Part shown: positions 2,614 to 30,237 of the stretch, one piece after another
Position numbering within the stretch: position 1 is the stretch's first letter
Layout of the letters: each line of letters begins with the position of its first letter
DNA from: Sandaracinus sp.
Lineage (GTDB): Bacteria > Myxococcota_A > Polyangia > Polyangiales > Houyiibacteriaceae
Assembly (NCBI GenBank): GCA_002699025.1
Contig: PABA01000068.1
Coordinates: 1 to 43,138, forward strand
Length of the DNA: 43,138 bases
Direction: 5' to 3'
Translations under genes and position numbers: made by a program
Notes under the pieces: generated by a model
The model's database searches: none
Seen by the model: only the letters and a program-made list of their open reading frames with translations
Told to the model about the DNA's origin: nothing

Positions 2614-4836
2614 CTACTCGCCTCCGCCGGCGCCGCCTTCCGCGGCGTCGCTCGCGTCGCTCTCTTCGCCGGCGGCACCTTCCCGATCCTCGTCGCCCTC
2701 CTCGAGGGGCGCCGGCGCCCAGGCGTCGACGTCGGCCCAGCAGACGCCCGCGACCGGGTGGCGGGCGTAGCGGCGGCGCGGGATGCGCTCGAAGACGAGG
2801 CGCGTGCGGCCCTCGACCGGGCGGGCGCTCGGGTAGCGGTCTCGGAGCGCGTTCACCGTGAGCGCCGTGACCTCGCCCGTGCGCGGGTCGACGCGGACGA
2901 TCTCGCCGTCGCCCTGCGCGAGGTCGCCCTCGGCCGAGGCCGCCGCGTCGGCGTAGACGGCGCCGTCGGGGCCGAGCGTCGGGTAGAAGACGCAGGGGGT
3001 GGTGCGCACGAAGCGCTGCGCGCCGGTGGCGGGCTCCCAGCGCACCAGGCCGCAGCCCTGCGCGCGGCTGGACGAGGCGAGGAGGAGCGCGCGGCCGTCC
3101 TCGGTGGCGCCGATCACCGCGCTGACCGGGCGCTCGCGTCCGCCGATGCGCGCGACGATCTCCGCGCCCCGCGGGCCGAGGCGCGCGAGGGCCACGTGGG
3201 TCATGGGCGGGAGGGCGGCGTCGGCGGCGCGCTCGCCCCCGAGCAGCTCGTCGACCCACTCGCCCTCCCCGGCGTCGGCCGTGCCCTCGGCGTCCGCCGT
3301 GCCCTCCGCGTCGGCTGCGTCCTCCGCGTCGGCTGCGTCCACCGCGTCGGCGGTGCCCTCCGCGTCGGCTGCGCTCTCGGTGTCGGCGGTGCCCTCCGCG
3401 TCGGCTGCGCTCTCGGTGTCGGCCGTGCCCTCGGCGTCATCCGGATCGGCCGCGCCTTCCGCTTCGCCCGCGCCCTCTTCGGCGGGGGCCTCGGCGATGC
3501 CCGGCACGACCACGGCGAGGAGCACCTCCGGCTCCGGCTCGGACGCCGTCTCCGCGTCCCCCTCGGCAGCACCCGCCGCGTCCTCGCGCGGCGGCGGCCG
3601 GAGGCGCCCCCAGCGCCCGTTCGAGCCGAAGCGCACCGGCTCGTAGCCCGGCCCCCCGTCCGCCGGCGCCACGAAGGTCTGCGCCTCCCCCCGGCGGAAG
3701 GGCCGATAGGCGTAGCTGACCCACGCCCCGTCCGGGCTCACGTGCGGGAAGAGCAGCCGCTCCGGCGCCTCGACCGCGCGGAGGATGCGCCGCTCGCCGG
3801 TCTCCACGTCCTGCCAGACGAGCACCGCGACCCGATCGGCGAGCTCGACGTAGGCGAGCGCGCGCCCGTCCTCCGAGAGCGTCGCGTAGGAGTAGAGGTT
3901 GTCGGTCGCCACCAGCGTCTGCCGCGGGCTCCCGTCGAGGGGCACGCGCACGAGCCGCTCGGGGGTCTCCGCGCGGCGCACGTCCGCGGCGTTGCCGATG
4001 GGGAAGACGGGCGCGCCGGTCTCTTCGCGCACCACGGCCCACTGGCCGTCCGGCGCCACGCCGACCAGGTACTCCTCGCCACAGCCGCGCGTCAGGCAGG
4101 TCGCCCCGAGCGGACCCTCCGCCGCGAGGGCCTCCGCCGACGCCTCGCAGGCCGCCTCGAACTCGGCCTTCCCCCGGGCCCGCGCCTCGAGCCCCCGCAC
4201 GGCCTCACCCACGTCCTCGTAGCGCTCGTACTCGTGCGCCGAGGGGGCGCCCTCCCTCCAGGCCTCGACGGGCCCGCTCCCGAGGATCTCCGCGGCCAGC
4301 GCGTCGGCCAGCGCGTCGACCCCCCGCCGCCCGGCCTGCATGCGCGCCCGGTCCTCGCTCGTCGTCTCCACGGCGAAGACGAGGTCGTGCGGCTCGCGCG
4401 TGTCCTCGCCCCGCGTGAGCGTCCGCCCGCGCACCCGCGCCACCAGCGCCACGCTCCCCTCGCCGAGGATGCCCGGCCGCTGCGCCAGCGGCTCGACGGT
4501 GATCAGCAACGCGTGGGCCGCGCCGAGCTCCGTCGCGAGCGAGGTCAGCTCGTCCAGGCTTCGCACGGAGGCGAGCCGCGCGTCCGCGCTCTCGTCCTCC
4601 TCCCCGGGCAGGACCTCGAGCCCGTGCCCCTCGAGGTGGAAGCGGAGCCGGCGCCCGAGGTTGTCGACGCAGGCCTCGGAGCAGCCGCTCACGCCGACGA
4701 GCACGGCCGTCGGCCGGGTGGCCTCGCGAAAGAAGAGCGCCCACGCGCCGGTGGCGATGCCGGCGACCACCAGCACGACGAAGGCGAGGAGGGGCCCCCG
4801 CGAGGTGCGGAGGCGGACGTCGTCCACGGAGTCCAT
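2614..4836 (-). CDS. Membrane-anchored PD40/TolB-like beta-propeller protein
   Basis: This 740-residue protein has one N-terminal membrane helix (about residues 15-36, LLAFVVLVVAGIATGAWALF) and no cleavage site. An extracytoplasmic region near 43-200 follows, with paired cysteines in GCSEACVDN. Repeated WD40-like PD40 blades come next: GVAPDGQWAVV, LSEDGRALAYV, VSPDGAWVSYAY and LGPDGAVYAD. An acidic Ala/Asp/Glu-rich linker interrupts the propeller at about residues 460-520. TolB-type propellers bind proteins or peptides; no enzymatic residues are evident. The gene is divergent from yebC and has a -10-like TATGCT just upstream. The exact partner is unknown. Confidence 0.75.
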   Translation of the reverse strand: MDSVDDVRLRTSRGPLLAFVVLVVAGIATGAWALFFREATRPTAVLVGVSGCSEACVDNLGRRLRFHLEGHGLEVLPGEEDESADARLASVRSLDELTSLATELGAAHALLITVEPLAQRPGILGEGSVALVARVRGRTLTRGEDTREPHDLVFAVETTSEDRARMQAGRRGVDALADALAAEILGSGPVEAWREGAPSAHEYERYEDVGEAVRGLEARARGKAEFEAACEASAEALAAEGPLGATCLTRGCGEEYLVGVAPDGQWAVVREETGAPVFPIGNAADVRRAETPERLVRVPLDGSPRQTLVATDNLYSYATLSEDGRALAYVELADRVAVLVWQDVETGERRILRAVEAPERLLFPHVSPDGAWVSYAYRPFRRGEAQTFVAPADGGPGYEPVRFGSNGRWGRLRPPPREDAAGAAEGDAETASEPEPEVLLAVVVPGIAEAPAEEGAGEAEGAADPDDAEGTADTESAADAEGTADTESAADAEGTADAVDAADAEDAADAEGTADAEGTADAGEGEWVDELLGGERAADAALPPMTHVALARLGPRGAEIVARIGGRERPVSAVIGATEDGRALLLASSSRAQGCGLVRWEPATGAQRFVRTTPCVFYPTLGPDGAVYADAAASAEGDLAQGDGEIVRVDPRTGEVTALTVNALRDRYPSARPVEGRTRLVFERIPRRRYARHPVAGVCWADVDAWAPAPLEEGDEDREGAAGEESDASDAAEGGAGGGE
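3280..3430. repeat. In-frame low-complexity repeat encoding an acidic linker
   Basis: Short units of 9-30 bp (GCCCTCCGCGTCGGC and variants) are repeated inside the propeller gene. On the minus strand they encode AEGTADTESAADAEG-like Ala/Asp/Glu repeats. Frame is kept throughout, which fits expansion by slippage under coding selection. Confidence 0.7.
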
Positions 4837-5763: not shown

Positions 5764-6285
5764 ATGAGCCGTCGGGCTCGCCCGGCGGCCGGCCCGCGCG
5801 TCCTCGGCATCGATCCGGGCACGCGCCGGACCGGCTGGGGCGTGATCGAGCCCTGGGGGCCGCGGGCGCGCGTGGTCGCCAGCGGGGTGATCGCGGCCGG
5901 CGACAAGCGCCCCCTCGAGAAGCGGCTGCGGACGATCCACGAGGGGCTCGCGGCGGTGATCGCGGAGCACGGCCCGCGGGCGGTCGCCGTGGAGGAGATC
6001 TTCCATCACAAGTTCGCGAACGCGGCCATGAAGCTCGGGCACGCCCGCGGCGTGGCGCTCCTGGCGGCGGCGTCGGCGGACCTCGAGGTCTTCGCCTACG
6101 CGCCTTCGCTCGTGAAGCGCACGGTCGCGGGGCGCGGGCGCGCGGACAAGGCGCAGGTCGCCCGGCTGGTGACGGCGATCCTCCAGCTCGACGAGACGCC
6201 GCCGGAGGACGCGAGCGACGCGCTGGCCATCGCGCTGACGCACGTGCAGGCGTCGCGGGCCGTCGGCATGCGCGCGCGCCGCTGA
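5764..6285 (+). CDS. ruvC: Crossover junction endodeoxyribonuclease RuvC
   Basis: This 173-residue protein is the Holliday junction resolvase, which cuts four-way junctions during recombinational repair. The RNase H-fold catalytic acidic residues are in place: D17 in GIDPG, E77 in VEEIF, and D149 and D152 in EDASDALAIALTH. The motif HKFANAAMKLGHARG is also typical. It lies 34 bp after yebC and probably shares its transcript. RuvA and RuvB, often next, are not here; the downstream 0.5 kb is apparently non-coding. Confidence 0.96.
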   Translation: MSRRARPAAGPRVLGIDPGTRRTGWGVIEPWGPRARVVASGVIAAGDKRPLEKRLRTIHEGLAAVIAEHGPRAVAVEEIFHHKFANAAMKLGHARGVALLAAASADLEVFAYAPSLVKRTVAGRGRADKAQVARLVTAILQLDETPPEDASDALAIALTHVQASRAVGMRARR

Positions 6286-6808
6286 GCGACCTTCGAGCTC
6301 TCCGCCGCGCCGCCGGCCGTCCCGAATCTGCGTGGGAACGTTCCGGCCGGAGCGCGCGCACGACGGGCCGGCGCGCGGTCGGGAGAGCGGGGCGGAGGGA
6401 GAGCGCGCCGCGTCCCGGCGCGAGCACCCCATCCGAGGATCCCGCGGCGGAGGGGCCTCGGGCGCGCCGCGGCTCGGGCGCGGGGTGGCCGAGAGCGGGG
6501 CGGACCCTCTCGCCAGCCCGCGCGCGAGCCGCGTCGCCGTTCCGCGGTGCGCGGACGGACGACCTGGATCCGCCGCGCTCCCCGCTCCGCCCGGCGCCCG
6601 AGCGCCCCGTCGCGCGGCGGAGCTCCTCGAAGGGTCTGCGGGCGACGCCCCCATTCGGGGGCCCATGGGCGAGCTCGCGCACTGGCGCGCCGCGAATCGC
6701 CCCGGAGCTCGCGCGCGATCCGTGACGGGCGTTCACGCCCATGCCCGAAGGGCTCACCCCAACCTTTGGTAGCCGTTTCGTGCCGTGTTTTCAGGGCGAT
6801 TCCTTCGC
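6286..6808. other. Apparent non-coding spacer after ruvC
   Basis: About 520 bp without a convincing gene on either strand. Open frames exist, but their translations are Arg/Gly/Pro-rich with no recognisable start context. An imperfect hairpin lies near 6313-6350 (CCGGCCG ... CGGCCGG around the palindrome GGAACGTTCC at 6335-6344) and could terminate the yebC-ruvC transcript. A local AT-richer patch near 6770-6800 leads into the next promoter. Confidence 0.45.
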
Positions 6809-6814
6809 TACGCT
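6809..6814 (+). promoter_or_regulatory. -10 element TACGCT giving a leaderless start of the kynurenine-like operon
   Basis: TACGCT ends 7 nt before the GTG at 6822, so a standard start point would fall on the first base of the start codon. No Shine-Dalgarno is present. T-rich sequence (TGTTTTC) near 6786 may provide the -35 region. Confidence 0.5.
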
Positions 6815-6821
6815 CTTCGTC

Positions 6822-7211
6822 GTGGACACGCCCCCTCACGTGCTCATCGTCGACGACGACGACGAGCACGCGCTCATGACGGCGCGCCTCCTCCGGCACG
6901 AGGGCTTCACCGTCACGACCTGGCGGGGGGCCTTCGGCGCCTCCATCGAGGCGCGCACGATCCAGCCCGACGTGGTCCTCCTCGACGTGGAGATGCCGGC
7001 CCTCTCCGGCGACCGGCTGGCGCCGCTGCTCCGCGAGAGCACCAGCGGCCAAGCGACTCTGATCGTGCTCCACTCGAGCCGCGACGAGGCGGACCTGCGC
7101 GCCATCGCCACCGAGACCGGCGCCGACGGCTACATCCCCAAGGGCACGGCCGGGCCCGCCATGGCCGCGAAGCTGCGCGGCTGGCTCGAGGCGCGGGGGC
7201 AGGGGGCGTGA
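6822..7211 (+). CDS. Single-domain response regulator (CheY-like receiver)
   Basis: This 129-residue protein is a receiver domain with no output domain. The acidic pocket is at residues 11-13 (IVDDDDE), the phospho-acceptor is D55 in LLDVEMP, the switch Ser is at 85/86 (VLHSSRDE), and the conserved Lys is K107 in YIPKG. Start: a GTG at 6822 preceded by a -10 hexamer. An ATG 27 codons upstream is less likely because it would precede the promoter. The stop overlaps the next start by 4 nt, so it is translationally coupled to an oxygenase gene. That is unusual and suggests that phosphorylation controls the pathway or that the protein interacts with its enzymes. No histidine kinase is adjacent. 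Confidence 0.85.
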   Translation: MDTPPHVLIVDDDDEHALMTARLLRHEGFTVTTWRGAFGASIEARTIQPDVVLLDVEMPALSGDRLAPLLRESTSGQATLIVLHSSRDEADLRAIATETGADGYIPKGTAGPAMAAKLRGWLEARGQGA

Positions 7212-8005
7212 AGTCCGGTCGCCGGCCGCGGCCCTCGCTCGCACGGGCCCTCGCCGAGAGCCTGGCCGAGCCGATCCCCAACAAGACGCTCAAGCGCGCG
7301 ATCGGCGACGGCGACTCGGACTACGAGCGCTACCTGCGCACGGCCGAGCTCCTCGCCTTGCAGACCCCGAAGGATCAGCTCGTCCACCGCGACGAGCACC
7401 TCTTCCAGATCGTGCACCAGAGCCAGGAGCTCTGGCTCTCGCTCGTCGCCCACGAGGCCGTGGGGGTGGTCGAGGCGATCGAGGAGGGGGAGCTCGTCGC
7501 GGCCCTCGACCGCGCGGCCCGCATGGCCCGCGTCTTCGACGTCCTCGAGCGCGACATCCGCGTCCTCGACACGCTCTCGCCGGCGGCGTTCATGGTCATC
7601 CGCAAGAGCCTCGGCCAGGGGAGCGGCCTCGAGTCGCCCGGCTACAACGCGCTCCAGCTCGCGGCGCCGGTCGTCGCCCAGGCCCTCGAGGAGGCGCTCG
7701 GGCCGCTCGTGGAGGTCTACCGGAAGGACGCGCCGACGGTGGCCTACCGGCTCTGCGAGCAGCTCGTCGACGTGGACGCCGGCTACCAGCGCTGGCTCAT
7801 GGCGCACTTCCTCCTGGTGCGGCGGACCCTCGGCGTGCACCGCACGGTCTCGGCCCTCGACGGCTTCCCGACGACGGCGCTCCCCAAGCGCATGGTGCGG
7901 GCGCTCTTCCCGGAGCTCTGGGACGTCCGCGTGAAGCTCACGCAGGGCTGGTCGGCCGAGGGAGGCTTCGAGCCGGGAGCCGATCGGTCCGCGGAGTCGT
8001 CGTGA
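7208..8005 (+). CDS. Tryptophan 2,3-dioxygenase family hemoprotein with altered substrate motifs
   Basis: This 265-residue protein aligns with tryptophan 2,3-dioxygenase, which opens the indole ring of tryptophan to N-formylkynurenine. The N-terminal signature DEHLFQIVHQSQELW carries active-site H70. WLMAHFLLVRRTLG supplies the probable heme ligand H200. The C-terminal FPELWDVR also matches. Two substrate-contact motifs differ, however: the usual SGFQS..YR appears as SGLESPGYN, losing the carboxylate-binding Arg, and the GTGGS loop is replaced by HRTVSALDG. So the fold and heme site are seen, but L-tryptophan as substrate is uncertain. GTG start at 7208 overlaps the response-regulator stop (GTGA). 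Confidence 0.85.
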   Translation: MKSGRRPRPSLARALAESLAEPIPNKTLKRAIGDGDSDYERYLRTAELLALQTPKDQLVHRDEHLFQIVHQSQELWLSLVAHEAVGVVEAIEEGELVAALDRAARMARVFDVLERDIRVLDTLSPAAFMVIRKSLGQGSGLESPGYNALQLAAPVVAQALEEALGPLVEVYRKDAPTVAYRLCEQLVDVDAGYQRWLMAHFLLVRRTLGVHRTVSALDGFPTTALPKRMVRALFPELWDVRVKLTQGWSAEGGFEPGADRSAESS

Positions 8006-9141
8006 GCGGCTTCCGGCGGGAGGCCTTCCCGATGCTCGCGGGCTGCACCTATCTGAACAGCTGCTCGACGGGCGCCTTCCCGGTCGGCATGCGGGCGGCG
8101 CTGGACGCGCACTGGGCGACGCTCTCCGAGTGGCGCGACGAGGTCTGGGCGAGCTGGTGGCCGGCCTGGCTCGCGTTCGCGGACGAGCTCGCCGCCTTCC
8201 TCGGGGCGCCGTCGGGGAGCGTGGTCACGGGGCCGAACGCGAGCGCGCTGGTGGCGCGGCTCTCGACCGCCGTCGACTTCGCGCCGGGCAAGGACGAGGT
8301 CGTGCTCACGGAGCTGGCCTTCCCCTCGGCGCCCTTCCTCTGGCGGGCGCACGGGCGGCGCGGCGCGAAGCTCGTCCGCGTGCCGGCGGAGCGAGGGGCG
8401 GTCGAGCCGGCGCGCCTCCTCGAGGCGATCGGGCCGCGCACGCGCCTCGTCCAGGTGTCGCATGGCGCGTTCCGGAGCGGCGCCGTCCTCCCCCTCGAGG
8501 CGCTCGTGACGCGCTGCCGCGAGGTCGACGCGCTCCTCGTCGTCGACGCCTACCAGACCCTCGGCACCATGCCGATGGACGTGACGGAGCTCGGCGTGGA
8601 CGTGGTCCTCGGCGGCGCGCACAAGTGGCTCTGCGGCGCCCTCGACCTCGGCTTCATGTACGTCCGGCCCGAGGTCGCCGAGGCCCTCGAGCCGACGGCG
8701 ACGGGCTGGGTCGCCGGCGACGAGCCGCTCCGCTTCGAGGAGAGCGCGGGCTTCGCGGCGGGCGCCCGGCGCTTCGCCGCGGGCACGCCGGCGGTCCTCC
8801 CCTGCCTGAGCTCCAAGCCGGGCCTCGCCATCGTCCGCGAGGTCGGCGTCGCGCGCATCCGCGCCCAATCCCTGCGCCAGACCGGGCGCCTGCGCGCGGC
8901 GGCGGAGGCGCTCGGCGCGGAGGTCTTCACGCCGGCCGCGCCCGAGGCGCGCGGGGGCGTCGTGAGCTTCTCCTTCGGCGAGGCGGAGGACGCGGCGATC
9001 TTCGACGCGCTCCGCGCCCGCGGCTTCGTCTTCAGCGTGCGCCGCGGGCTCCGCGTCGCGCCCCACTTCTACAACACGGACGACGAGATCGAGGCCTTCA
9101 CGGACGCCCTCGAGGAGGTCGTCCGGGAGCAACGCGCATGA
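8002..9141 (+). CDS. Kynureninase-like PLP-dependent enzyme (aminotransferase class V fold)
   Basis: The 379-residue product is a fold-type I PLP enzyme. The cofactor lysine is K208 in GGAHKWLCGALDLG and the pyridine-nitrogen Asp is D182 in VVDAYQTLG. The C-terminal half (ESAGFAAGARRFAAGTP, then EVGVARIRAQS) resembles kynureninase more than cysteine desulfurase. Kynureninase cleaves kynurenine to anthranilate and alanine. The start is a GTG overlapping the dioxygenase stop by 4 nt. No formamidase or kynurenine monooxygenase is nearby, so the substrate could come from elsewhere or be atypical. Other class V activities cannot be excluded from sequence alone. Confidence 0.75.
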   Translation: MSGFRREAFPMLAGCTYLNSCSTGAFPVGMRAALDAHWATLSEWRDEVWASWWPAWLAFADELAAFLGAPSGSVVTGPNASALVARLSTAVDFAPGKDEVVLTELAFPSAPFLWRAHGRRGAKLVRVPAERGAVEPARLLEAIGPRTRLVQVSHGAFRSGAVLPLEALVTRCREVDALLVVDAYQTLGTMPMDVTELGVDVVLGGAHKWLCGALDLGFMYVRPEVAEALEPTATGWVAGDEPLRFEESAGFAAGARRFAAGTPAVLPCLSSKPGLAIVREVGVARIRAQSLRQTGRLRAAAEALGAEVFTPAAPEARGGVVSFSFGEAEDAAIFDALRARGFVFSVRRGLRVAPHFYNTDDEIEAFTDALEEVVREQRA

Positions 9142-10157
9142 GCCAGGGTCCCCACGGCGCCCGCGCCCTCTTCTCGCTCCTCTTCCACGGCGACAAGGCC
9201 ATCGAGCTCGTCGAGGCGGCCTGGGCGACGGGCGTGCTGGCGGAGCTCGACGCCGGGCCGGTGAGCGTGGGCGAAGTCGCCGAGCGCGCCGGGCTGGTGC
9301 CGGGGCGGCTCTTCAAGCTGCTCGAGGGGCTCGAGGCGCTCGGCGTCGTGGAGCGGGTGCACGAGGCGGCGCGCTTCGAGGAGAGCCGCTACGTGAGCCG
9401 GGAGCCGCTCGCGGAGGCCGCCGCGCAGACGGTCGGGCCGGAGTCGATCGAGCGCGATCGGCTGAAGCAGCCCTGGCAGCACCTGCGCGGGCGCCTGGCC
9501 GAGGTGCTCCGCGGCGCCGAGGGGATCCCGCCGGACGAGTTCGCCTGGCCGCCGCAGACCGACGAGCAGGTGCGCGAGTTCGAGTCCGCGATGGCCACGG
9601 GCGTGCCCCCGCTGGCCGAGAGCCTCCTCGCCCAGCCGGCGCTCTTCGAGGGCGTCGGGCGGCTCCTCGACGTCGGCGGCGGGGATGGCACGCTCGCGGC
9701 GCGGCTCGCCGAGGCGCACCCCGCGCTGGAGGTCGACGTCTACAACCTCCCGGCGGCGCGGGAGCTGATCGAGGGGCGCGTCGCGGCGAGCCCGGCGGCG
9801 GGGCGCCTCGGCGTGGTCTGCGGGGACTTCCTCGAGGAGCCGCTGCCGGAGGGCTACGACGCGATCTCCTTCGTGCGGGTGCTGCACGACTGGCCCAACG
9901 ACGTGACCTGGTCGCTCCTCGAGAAGGCGCGGCGGGCGCTCGCGCCGGGGGGGCGCCTCTGGATCGTCGAGGAGCTGCGCACGCCCGATCGGCTCGCCGT
10001 GCAGCTCTTCTGGACGTACTTCCTCGTCGGCGTCGACGGCTGCTTCTCGCGGCTGCGGGCGGCGGAGGACTACCTCGGCTGGCTCGCGGAGCTCGGCTTC
10101 GACGAGGCGCGGGTGCTGCGCGGCGGGCCCTTCGAGGTGGTCGCCGCGCGCCGCTGA
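9138..10157 (+). CDS. SAM-dependent O-methyltransferase (hydroxyindole/acetylserotonin OMT family)
   Basis: This 339-residue methyltransferase has an N-terminal winged-helix dimerisation region (residues 10-95) and a class I SAM domain. Motif I is LLDVGGGDG at 176-184. GDFLEEPLPEGYDAISFVRVLHDW follows, with H250 in the HDW position used as base by this family, and then LAPGGRLWIVEE. Relatives methylate phenolic or hydroxy-aromatic small molecules in secondary metabolism. It overlaps the kynureninase-like gene by 4 nt (ATGA) and ends the operon. A hydroxyanthranilate- or quinoline-type acceptor is a reasonable guess but is inferred only from context. Confidence 0.85.
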   Translation: MSQGPHGARALFSLLFHGDKAIELVEAAWATGVLAELDAGPVSVGEVAERAGLVPGRLFKLLEGLEALGVVERVHEAARFEESRYVSREPLAEAAAQTVGPESIERDRLKQPWQHLRGRLAEVLRGAEGIPPDEFAWPPQTDEQVREFESAMATGVPPLAESLLAQPALFEGVGRLLDVGGGDGTLAARLAEAHPALEVDVYNLPAARELIEGRVAASPAAGRLGVVCGDFLEEPLPEGYDAISFVRVLHDWPNDVTWSLLEKARRALAPGGRLWIVEELRTPDRLAVQLFWTYFLVGVDGCFSRLRAAEDYLGWLAELGFDEARVLRGGPFEVVAARR

Positions 10158-10266
10158 ACTCGGCGCGCTCGGAGGCGTCGGCTGGCGGCGCGCTCCTCGT
10201 CTTCGCTCGCGGGAAAGGGAGAGCGCGGCGCGCGCAGCGAGGAAAGCGGGGGAGGGCGCAGCGGGC

Positions 10267-10722
10267 TCAGGCCAGCCAGCCGCGGAGGCGGCGCCAGGCG
10301 GCCGCGGCGAGGGGCACGGACTCGGCGAGGGACTCGAGGAGATCCCAGTAGTCCCGGTGGTCGACGATGAGCCCGTCGCGGAGGCGCAGGTGGGAGACGC
10401 CCTCGATGGCGACCGAGGCCGGCGCGCGCCCGGGCCGGAAGCGCATGGTCCAGCGGAGGAAGATCGTGTCGCCGCCGCGCGCGCCGTCCTCGACCTCGAC
10501 GCGGAGCCCACGCGCGAGGCGCACGAAGCCGATCATCGCCTTCCGGAAGGCGGGGAGGCCGTGGGTCTCCTGGAGCGGATCGCGGAAGCGCACGTCCGGG
10601 TGGTAGAGGCGGAGGAGCTCCTCGAGGGCGGCGCGCGGGTCGCCCTGGTCGAAGGCCTCGAAGGCTTCGCGGACGCGGCCGAGCGTGACGGGCGGCGGGC
10701 TCTCGGGGGCGGTCGTCGGCAT
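10267..10722 (-). CDS. NTF2/SnoaL-like protein
   Basis: The 151-residue product shows the NTF2-like cone-fold pattern: an N-terminal helix with FEAFDQGDPRAALEELLRLYHPDVRFRDP, a central DTIFLRWTMRF strand, and C-terminal GVSHLRLRDGLIVDHRDYWD. Members include isomerases, cyclases and non-catalytic ligand-binding proteins. The ATG at 10722 leaves the conserved core intact; upstream extension reads through repetitive DNA and is rejected. The gene converges on the methyltransferase operon with 109 bp between stops, so it is probably transcribed independently. Confidence 0.8.
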   Translation of the reverse strand: MPTTAPESPPPVTLGRVREAFEAFDQGDPRAALEELLRLYHPDVRFRDPLQETHGLPAFRKAMIGFVRLARGLRVEVEDGARGGDTIFLRWTMRFRPGRAPASVAIEGVSHLRLRDGLIVDHRDYWDLLESLAESVPLAAAAWRRLRGWLA

Positions 10723-17302: not shown

Positions 17303-17547
17303 GAGTCCTGCGGACGCCTGCTCGGGAGTCCTGCGGACGCCTGCTCGGGAGTCCTGCGGACGCCTGCCCGGGCGTCCTGCGGACGCCTGCCCGGGAGTCC
17401 TGCGGACGCCTAGCCGGGGGTCCTGCGGACGCCTAGCCGGGAGTCCTGCGGACGCCTAGCCGGGGGTCCTGCGGACGGCTACCCGGGAGTCCTGCGGACG
17501 CCTAGCCGGGAGTCCTGCGGACGCCTACCCGGGAGTCCGCAGGGCTC
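17303..17547. repeat. Tandem array of ten 23-bp units, core GAGTCCTGCGGACGC
   Basis: Units start at 17303, 17326, 17349 and then every 23 bp up to 17510, with a partial copy from 17533. The constant part is GAGTCCTGCGGACGC; the last eight bases vary (CTGCTCGG, CTAGCCGG, CTACCCGG). Each unit contains the interrupted palindrome GTCC-TGC-GGAC. There are no unique spacers, so it is not CRISPR. The same core forms the array at 30004-30237. Confidence 0.9.
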
Positions 17548-30003: not shown

Positions 30004-30237
30004 GAGTCCTGGCGGACGCCGCTGGGGAGTCCTGCGGACGCGCTCCAGGGGAGTCCTGCGGACGCGCTCGGGGGAGTCCTGCGGACGCGCTCGGGGGAGT
30101 CCTGCGGACGCGCTCGGGACGCGCTCGGAGGAGTCCTGCGGACGCGCCCGAGGGAGTCCTGCGGACGCGCTCGGGGGAGTCCTGCGGACGCCCGCTGGGG
30201 AGTCCTGCGGACGCCTGCTGGGGAGTCCTGCGGACCA
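30004..30237. repeat. Second tandem array of 23-bp units, same core as 17303-17547
   Basis: Ten copies of GAGTCCTGCGGACGC begin at 30004, 30027, 30051, 30074, 30097, 30131, 30154, 30177, 30200 and 30223. Period is 23-24 bp apart from one 34-bp interval. The variable part is GCTCGGGG or CTGCTGGG. Orientation is the same as in the first array. It fills the space between the membrane-protein gene and the operator cluster of the TetR gene. Confidence 0.9.

Follow-up and report, generated by a model that had tools for sequence, protein, structure and literature searches.

The window analysed here, a 43,138-nt stretch of contig PABA01000068.1 of Sandaracinus sp., contains an operon of four genes at positions 6822-10157 of the plus strand, in which a stand-alone receiver gene precedes a trio of enzyme genes: an oxygenase of the tryptophan 2,3-dioxygenase (TDO) family, a kynureninase-like pyridoxal phosphate (PLP) enzyme, and a methyltransferase (MT). 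Comparison with related genomes suggested that signalling and biosynthesis are combined in a conserved module, of which the operon forms the effector half, with a NosP-type phosphorelay joined to a short pathway that oxidises tryptophan and yields a methylated small molecule; we give this reading a probability of about 0.55. Judging by the gene content of the genomes compared, the window appears to hold only half of that larger module, with the partner genes on another contig.

Relatives were sought in 58 related genomes; the family of the strain was represented by 34 genomes and the phylum by a sample of 379. Close homologues of the oxygenase (approximately 50-57% identity) were found only in G011, G008, G015, and G016, all from the same family, and in G016 in pieces. 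A single scan of a wider collection of genome contigs with the TDO protein returned just two distant Acidobacteria loci. The order TDO-PLP-MT was kept in all four relatives, with overlapping genes; the G016 trio was split over two contigs that have 99 identical terminal bases in common inside the oxygenase gene. In these relatives, the trio adjoins the genes of a FIST-domain protein (FIST 98.9 bits, FIST_C 49.6 bits), a hybrid histidine kinase (HK) with HisKA, HATPase, and three REC domains but no sensor domain, a stand-alone receiver (RR), and a lipoprotein-like protein with weak matches to multihaem cytochromes c, a probable multihaem cytochrome (CYT). The arrangement varied: CYT-FIST-HK-RR-TDO-PLP-MT on one strand in G011 and G016, a signalling half convergent to the enzyme half in G008, and the enzymes first, followed by CYT-FIST-HK-RR, in G015. 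In the genome of the window (G000) the module is split: a single FIST copy (61%) and CYT lie with HK and RR on contig 168, without the enzymes, and a diverged second RR stands with the enzymes in the window. An earlier note on this DNA, made from the window alone, had described an operon with 4-nt overlaps (GTGA, GTGA, ATGA) and proposed two-component control. The coordinates and strand of the four genes, their 4-nt overlaps, and the family matches were confirmed, and all four proteins exceeded the Pfam cut-offs, far above chance. The overlaps were conserved as well: a 4-nt PLP/MT overlap is possible in six of six loci, and the TDO/PLP overlap is 4 nt in three of four loci and 1 nt in the remaining one. 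The recurrence of the enzyme order in four relatives indicated a conserved unit, and the two-component link, with FIST-HK-RR adjoining the trio, proved stronger than that note could see.

The signalling genes and the enzymes might nevertheless be chance neighbours, inherited together in a slowly shuffling stretch of the genome with no functional link. All TDO-type cases belong to one family, so their adjacency may descend from one event, and the linkage is broken in G000. However, at least two changes of orientation and order have left the genes together, the copied receiver in G000 is still joined to the enzymes by a 4-nt overlap, and in two other families this position is occupied by an enzyme set that is analogous but not the same. 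We therefore regard mere neighbourhood as quite improbable.

The different enzyme set was found in G035 and G054, which belong to another family and have the arrangement CYT-FIST-HK-RR-X-PLP-MT, and in G102 from a third family, with CYT-FIST-HK-RR-X-PLP and no methyltransferase found. The X protein is a fusion of Trp_DMAT (Trp-dimethylallyltransferase) and Haem_oxygenas_2 (haem-oxygenase-like iron enzyme) domains. The nearest proteins of solved structure are aromatic prenyltransferases of the DMATS type (E value 1e-39), among them 6-dimethylallyltryptophan synthase. The PLP enzymes of G035 and G054 are 39-40% identical to that of the window, and their MT belongs to Methyltransf_2. Judging from these domains, a different tryptophan-type enzyme appears to fill the oxygenase slot in the other families. 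Since the nearest solved relatives of the DMATS domain include 6-dimethylallyltryptophan synthase, the fusion also supports a tryptophan-derived or tryptophan-type substrate as the probable starting point of the pathway. In the phylum sample, the FIST clade was present in 10 of 379 genomes, seven of which have an enzyme set of one kind or the other.

An alternative is an autoinducer-type loop: the enzymes would produce a signal from tryptophan, and this signal would serve as the FIST ligand, the kinase and receiver responding to it as in the PLP-synthase/sensor-kinase pairs LqsA/LqsS and CqsA/CqsS. Genes of a synthase adjoining those of a receptor kinase are the layout of such loops, and LqsA is a PLP-dependent autoinducer synthase (PMC11237717). 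In addition, FIST is a sensory domain encoded beside a sensor-less kinase, and the biosynthetic part varies (TDO or the DMATS fusion) while the receptor part is constant. On the other hand, TDO-type and X-type genomes should differ in their products, yet their FIST proteins are 58-68% identical, and the FIST protein is present without the enzymes in three genomes. Such a loop is rather unlikely in our estimation.

The receiver at the head of the operon matched PF00072 (REC, 60.9 bits), with its phospho-acceptor Asp55 encoded at 6984-6986. Asp11-13, Asp55, Ser85/86, and Lys107 are invariant across ten stand-alone receivers of the module. The window receiver shares 45-49% identity with the receivers encoded next to FIST/HK and approximately 30% with those inside the kinase; in a receiver tree it lay on a long branch and was not placed. 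Because it is most like the FIST/HK-linked receivers and has kept all the invariant residues, the operon probably begins with a copied or moved tail of the phosphorelay operon. The stand-alone form of its first gene, which the earlier note had found unusual, is thus explained and is not an oddity: this gene duplicates the receiver at the end of the NosP-like signalling operon.

In the known NosP systems, nitric oxide (NO) is sensed through haem (PMC12570481; PMC6769237). In NosP/VpsS and NosP/NosK, the FIST protein is paired with a histidine kinase without a sensor domain (PMC6769237; PMC12570481), and the outputs are enzymes of cyclic di-GMP (c-di-GMP) metabolism or a LuxU relay (PMC6769237; PMC12570481). 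A regulator with a c-di-GMP output domain is common in them, not universal, the VpsS relay having none (PMC6769237). The relatives of the window, and contig 168 of its own genome, resemble the NosP systems with NahK, VpsS, or NosK and a response regulator in that a FIST protein is encoded with a sensor-less HK and an RR. They differ in that the module's receivers, proteins of 115-133 aa, stand alone with a REC domain and no c-di-GMP output domain, and in that the linked genes encode metabolic enzymes and a probable multihaem cytochrome. By analogy, the FIST protein, for which no relative turned up among solved structures, may bind haem and NO. A local NO synthase was considered as the source of a ligand and rejected, as a search of the 58 genomes gave none; if NO is involved, other enzymes or an external supply would have to provide it. 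CYT and a sigma-54 activator with a degenerate N-terminus often adjoin the FIST gene (locus L054, 9013-12658; L045, 14417-17838). Sigma-54-like sites (TGGCACG-N4-xGCT) precede the CYT gene in L054, L045, L051, and L083, beside the sigma-54 activator, and were absent before CYT in L046, L086, and L127.

The oxygenase matched PF03301 at 102.4 bits. It reached 127.6 bits against TIGR03036 (tryptophan 2,3-dioxygenase), for which the cut-off is 390.7. Its AlphaFold model (predicted local distance difference test score 83.8; predicted template modelling score, pTM, 0.80) fitted best to MarE, the 2-oxindole-forming haem-dependent aromatic oxygenase (HDAO) of maremycin biosynthesis (Z 23.8, root-mean-square deviation 2.3, 216 residues), followed by the bacterial TDO XcTDO (Z 19.9, 209 residues), human TDO (17), and IDO (13). 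The four-helix-bundle core and lid helix of the HDAO superfamily are present in the model, and His200 is the predicted haem ligand. The roles of the indole-contacting His and the carboxylate-binding Arg, both of which have equivalents here (Table 1), are known from MarE and TDO (PMC11904535). As in MarE, the alphaE-H segment is missing. Relative to TDO, the protein lacks approximately 45 residues; its lid motif is GxGSGxxSPG. The protein is only about 25% identical to MarE, lacks the MarE-type SLGGR loop, and has no maremycin context. From tryptophan 2,3-dioxygenase (KynA), with which it has in common PF03301, the haem His, the indole-contacting His, and the carboxylate Arg, it is set apart by the TIGR03036 score, the missing segment, and the absence of the GTGGS loop with its amino-group-contacting Thr; other non-GTGGS loops occur across the oxygenase clade. 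Loop swaps in MarE and TDO alter mono- versus dioxygenation (PMC12312684); therefore, N-formylkynurenine should not be assumed as the product. A separate canonical TDO is encoded on contig C5 of the same genome. We conclude that the oxygenase is a member of the HDAO superfamily but not an ordinary TDO.

The PLP enzyme showed a similar mixture of traits. Kynureninase (KynU) was its top match both by profile and by fold: PF00266 (Aminotran_5) gave 127.4 bits, KYNU_C 33.4 bits (cut-off 27), and the best match of the family profile in the PDB was kynureninase 1qz9 with 229 bits, the next being SufS-type cysteine desulfurases with 163. The model (pTM 0.90) fitted 1qz9 with Z 43.6, the cystine lyase C-DES with 42.3, and cysteine desulfurases with approximately 42, so that kynureninase is the nearest fold, though just 1.3 Z above C-DES. 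A cysteine desulfurase was not the first choice for this enzyme, as the profile favours kynureninase by 66 bits; the fold margin is small. Unlike KynU, the enzyme stays below the kynureninase cut-off of TIGR01814 (69.7 bits; cut-off 246.4) and has DxYQ instead of DxAH. The Tyr-Lys pair of kynureninase (Tyr226-Lys227 in P. fluorescens) is replaced by His207-Lys208; Tyr226 of kynureninase matters for catalysis. Its substrate may be some other beta-substituted amino acid, which it would cleave.

The gene after that of the PLP enzyme (9138..10157; METHYLTRANSFERASE) encodes a generic Methyltransf_2 protein (PF00891, 85.4 bits) with S-adenosylmethionine (SAM) and HDW motifs (DVGGG at 178; HDW, the motif of the catalytic His, at 250). 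Its profile matched DSYB/MTHB (129 bits), RedM (126), SibL (122), and hydroxyindole O-methyltransferase (114) in the PDB. Sibiromycin-type sets of TDO, kynureninase, and methyltransferase serve 3-hydroxy-4-methylanthranilate. The window operon has the same three enzyme classes, and SibL ranks with the closest methyltransferases of solved structure, but a monooxygenase, a formamidase, and a non-ribosomal peptide synthetase (NRPS) are absent from the operon, and SibL is not closer than several others. A SibL-type assignment was rejected, its match being no better than those of DSYB/MTHB or RedM.

These identities bear on ordinary kynurenine-type catabolism, by which N-formylkynurenine would be converted to (formyl)anthranilate and then to methyl or N-methyl anthranilate, the receiver being incidental. 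The oxygenase and the PLP enzyme do resemble the TDO and kynureninase families, and pairs of TDO-like and kynureninase-like genes occur in Novosphingobium, Nonomuraea, Micromonospora, and G364. Against this stand the canonical TDO elsewhere in the genome, the NCBIfam cut-offs for TDO and kynureninase missed widely, the loss of the GTGGS loop and the Tyr-Lys pair, the DMATS fusion that takes the place of the oxygenase in two other families, and the conservation of the receivers. Such catabolism is in our judgement unlikely. Thus, of the interpretation made from the window earlier, the tryptophan-derived substrate gains support from the DMATS swap and the gene set from its conservation as a unit; the reading as ordinary tryptophan-to-anthranilate steps is weakened.

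For the module of phosphorelay and pathway that we favour, the following sequence of events is proposed. The FIST protein, a cytosolic sensor of the NosP type, would sense a small ligand, possibly NO through haem, and control the hybrid HK, which has no sensor of its own; the kinase would phosphorylate the stand-alone receiver. Because the receiver has no DNA-binding domain, it may act by binding the enzymes or another relay protein, or else through transcription, and in this way the phosphorelay would control the enzymes. The MarE-like HDAO would oxidise tryptophan or a derivative, the kynureninase-like enzyme would cleave or rearrange the side chain of the oxidised product, and the methyltransferase would methylate the result, giving a presumably secreted or signalling metabolite. 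Several observations weigh against this proposal. The linkage is broken in the window's own genome, and no NO synthase accompanies the putative NO sensor in the compared genomes. The methyltransferases of G035 and G054 are only 28% identical to that of the window and lack the HDW motif. The FIST-kinase genes of G044, G384, and G376 have no such enzymes nearby, and the FIST sensor can therefore work without them. In favour of the proposal, the five genomes with the FIST clade, out of the 34 of the family, are also the five with the TDO/MT clade; random placement would give this exact match with a probability of 4e-6, a figure that is too strong given common descent.

The promoter region did not bear out the single leaderless promoter suggested earlier. 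No sigma-70-like site was found in 6280-10300, and none stands out before 6822; likewise, no sigma-54-like site above background precedes the operon start at 6822. The start at 6809 given in the earlier note has only a weak TACGCT box, and the reading frame is open upstream to an ATG at 6741. Thus, the search brought out no recognisable promoter type. The genes upstream, which we take to be YebC and RuvC, and the other surroundings of the operon in the window form no large biosynthetic cluster. Convergent to the operon lies a gene at 10267-10722 (minus strand) for a small protein of 151 aa that, judged by its sequence, resembles a SnoaL/NTF2 fold. Elsewhere in the window, an 18/36-nt repeat at 3272-3438, within a 740-aa open reading frame (2614-4836, minus strand), encodes an Ala/Asp/Glu/Thr-rich low-complexity stretch, and two tandem arrays (17303-17538 and 30004-30235) have a unit of approximately 23 nt with the core GGAGTCCTGCGGACGC, containing a GTCC-TGC-GGAC inverted repeat. 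The exact 16-mer occurs 173 times in the genome, clustered on many contigs, and its reversed control 0 times.

Table 1. Coordinates of the operon genes, key residues, upstream region, and fusion genes of related loci.
Feature	Position	Strand	Description
Upstream region	6741..6821	+	Promoter unproven; sigma-70-like and sigma-54-like sites not above background
Receiver	6822..7211	+	Stand-alone response-regulator receiver, 129 aa, GTG start
TDO-family HDAO	7208..8005	+	265 aa, short MarE-like architecture
His70 of oxygenase	7415..7417	+	Aligned to His55 of XcTDO/MarE (indole N contact); invariant in 17 relatives
Arg132 of oxygenase	7601..7603	+	Aligned to Arg117 of XcTDO and Arg118 of MarE (substrate carboxylate); invariant
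His200 of oxygenase	7805..7807	+	Aligned to proximal haem ligand His240 of XcTDO and His201 of MarE; invariant in A1
Active-site loop TVSALDGFPT of oxygenase	7844..7873	+	In place of GTGGSSG of TDO (SLGGR in MarE)
Class-V PLP enzyme, kynureninase-like	8002..9141	+	379 aa
PLP Lys208 of PLP enzyme	8623-8625	+	Preceded by His207, not Tyr
SAM methyltransferase	9138..10157	+	Methyltransf_2, O-methyltransferase-like, 339 aa
Trp_DMAT/Haem_oxygenas_2 fusion genes	L083 5459-7228; L086 4769-6550; L127 7748-9577		Downstream of FIST-HK-RR; L127 by 38% similarity only

Short TDO-like proteins with kynureninase-like partners were also found in Novosphingobium and G364, and Nonomuraea has the order TDO-PLP-second TDO-like-FAD monooxygenase. 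On a plasmid of Micromonospora zamorensis (L036, 3325-10166), genes for an NO synthase, a globin-domain protein, a short TDO-like protein, a class-V PLP enzyme, and a protein of 423 aa whose C-terminal domain is TDO-like follow one another in one direction, which is another link of NO chemistry to TDO-like/PLP pairs. Two Streptomyces plasmids (L037, 6992-8979; L038, 6986-8988) carry two consecutive TDO-like genes in NRPS clusters, the second encoding 414 aa with an unassigned N-terminal part.

No publication describing a module of this kind came up in literature searches, which were partial in their coverage. The combination of an exchangeable tryptophan-modifying pathway, based on a MarE-like HDAO or on a prenyltransferase/haem-oxygenase-like fusion, with a NosP-like relay might constitute an undescribed chemical-signalling circuit with a methylated tryptophan-derived signal, in which the receiver would target either the enzymes directly or their expression; we advance this tentatively, as a possibility that is more doubtful than the module itself. 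If a NosP-like relay is indeed joined to a biosynthetic mini-pathway, the production of a metabolite would be added to the c-di-GMP and quorum-sensing outputs. The oxygenase also draws attention to a sizeable HDAO subfamily that is uncharacterised: its members are short, lack GTGGS, have a GxGSGxxSPG lid, and extend across several phyla, often beside a kynureninase-like enzyme, and their reaction is easy to test. Finally, the exchange of a TDO-like enzyme for a DMATS/haem-oxygenase-like fusion in one and the same slot suggests that the route to small molecules derived from tryptophan is modular.

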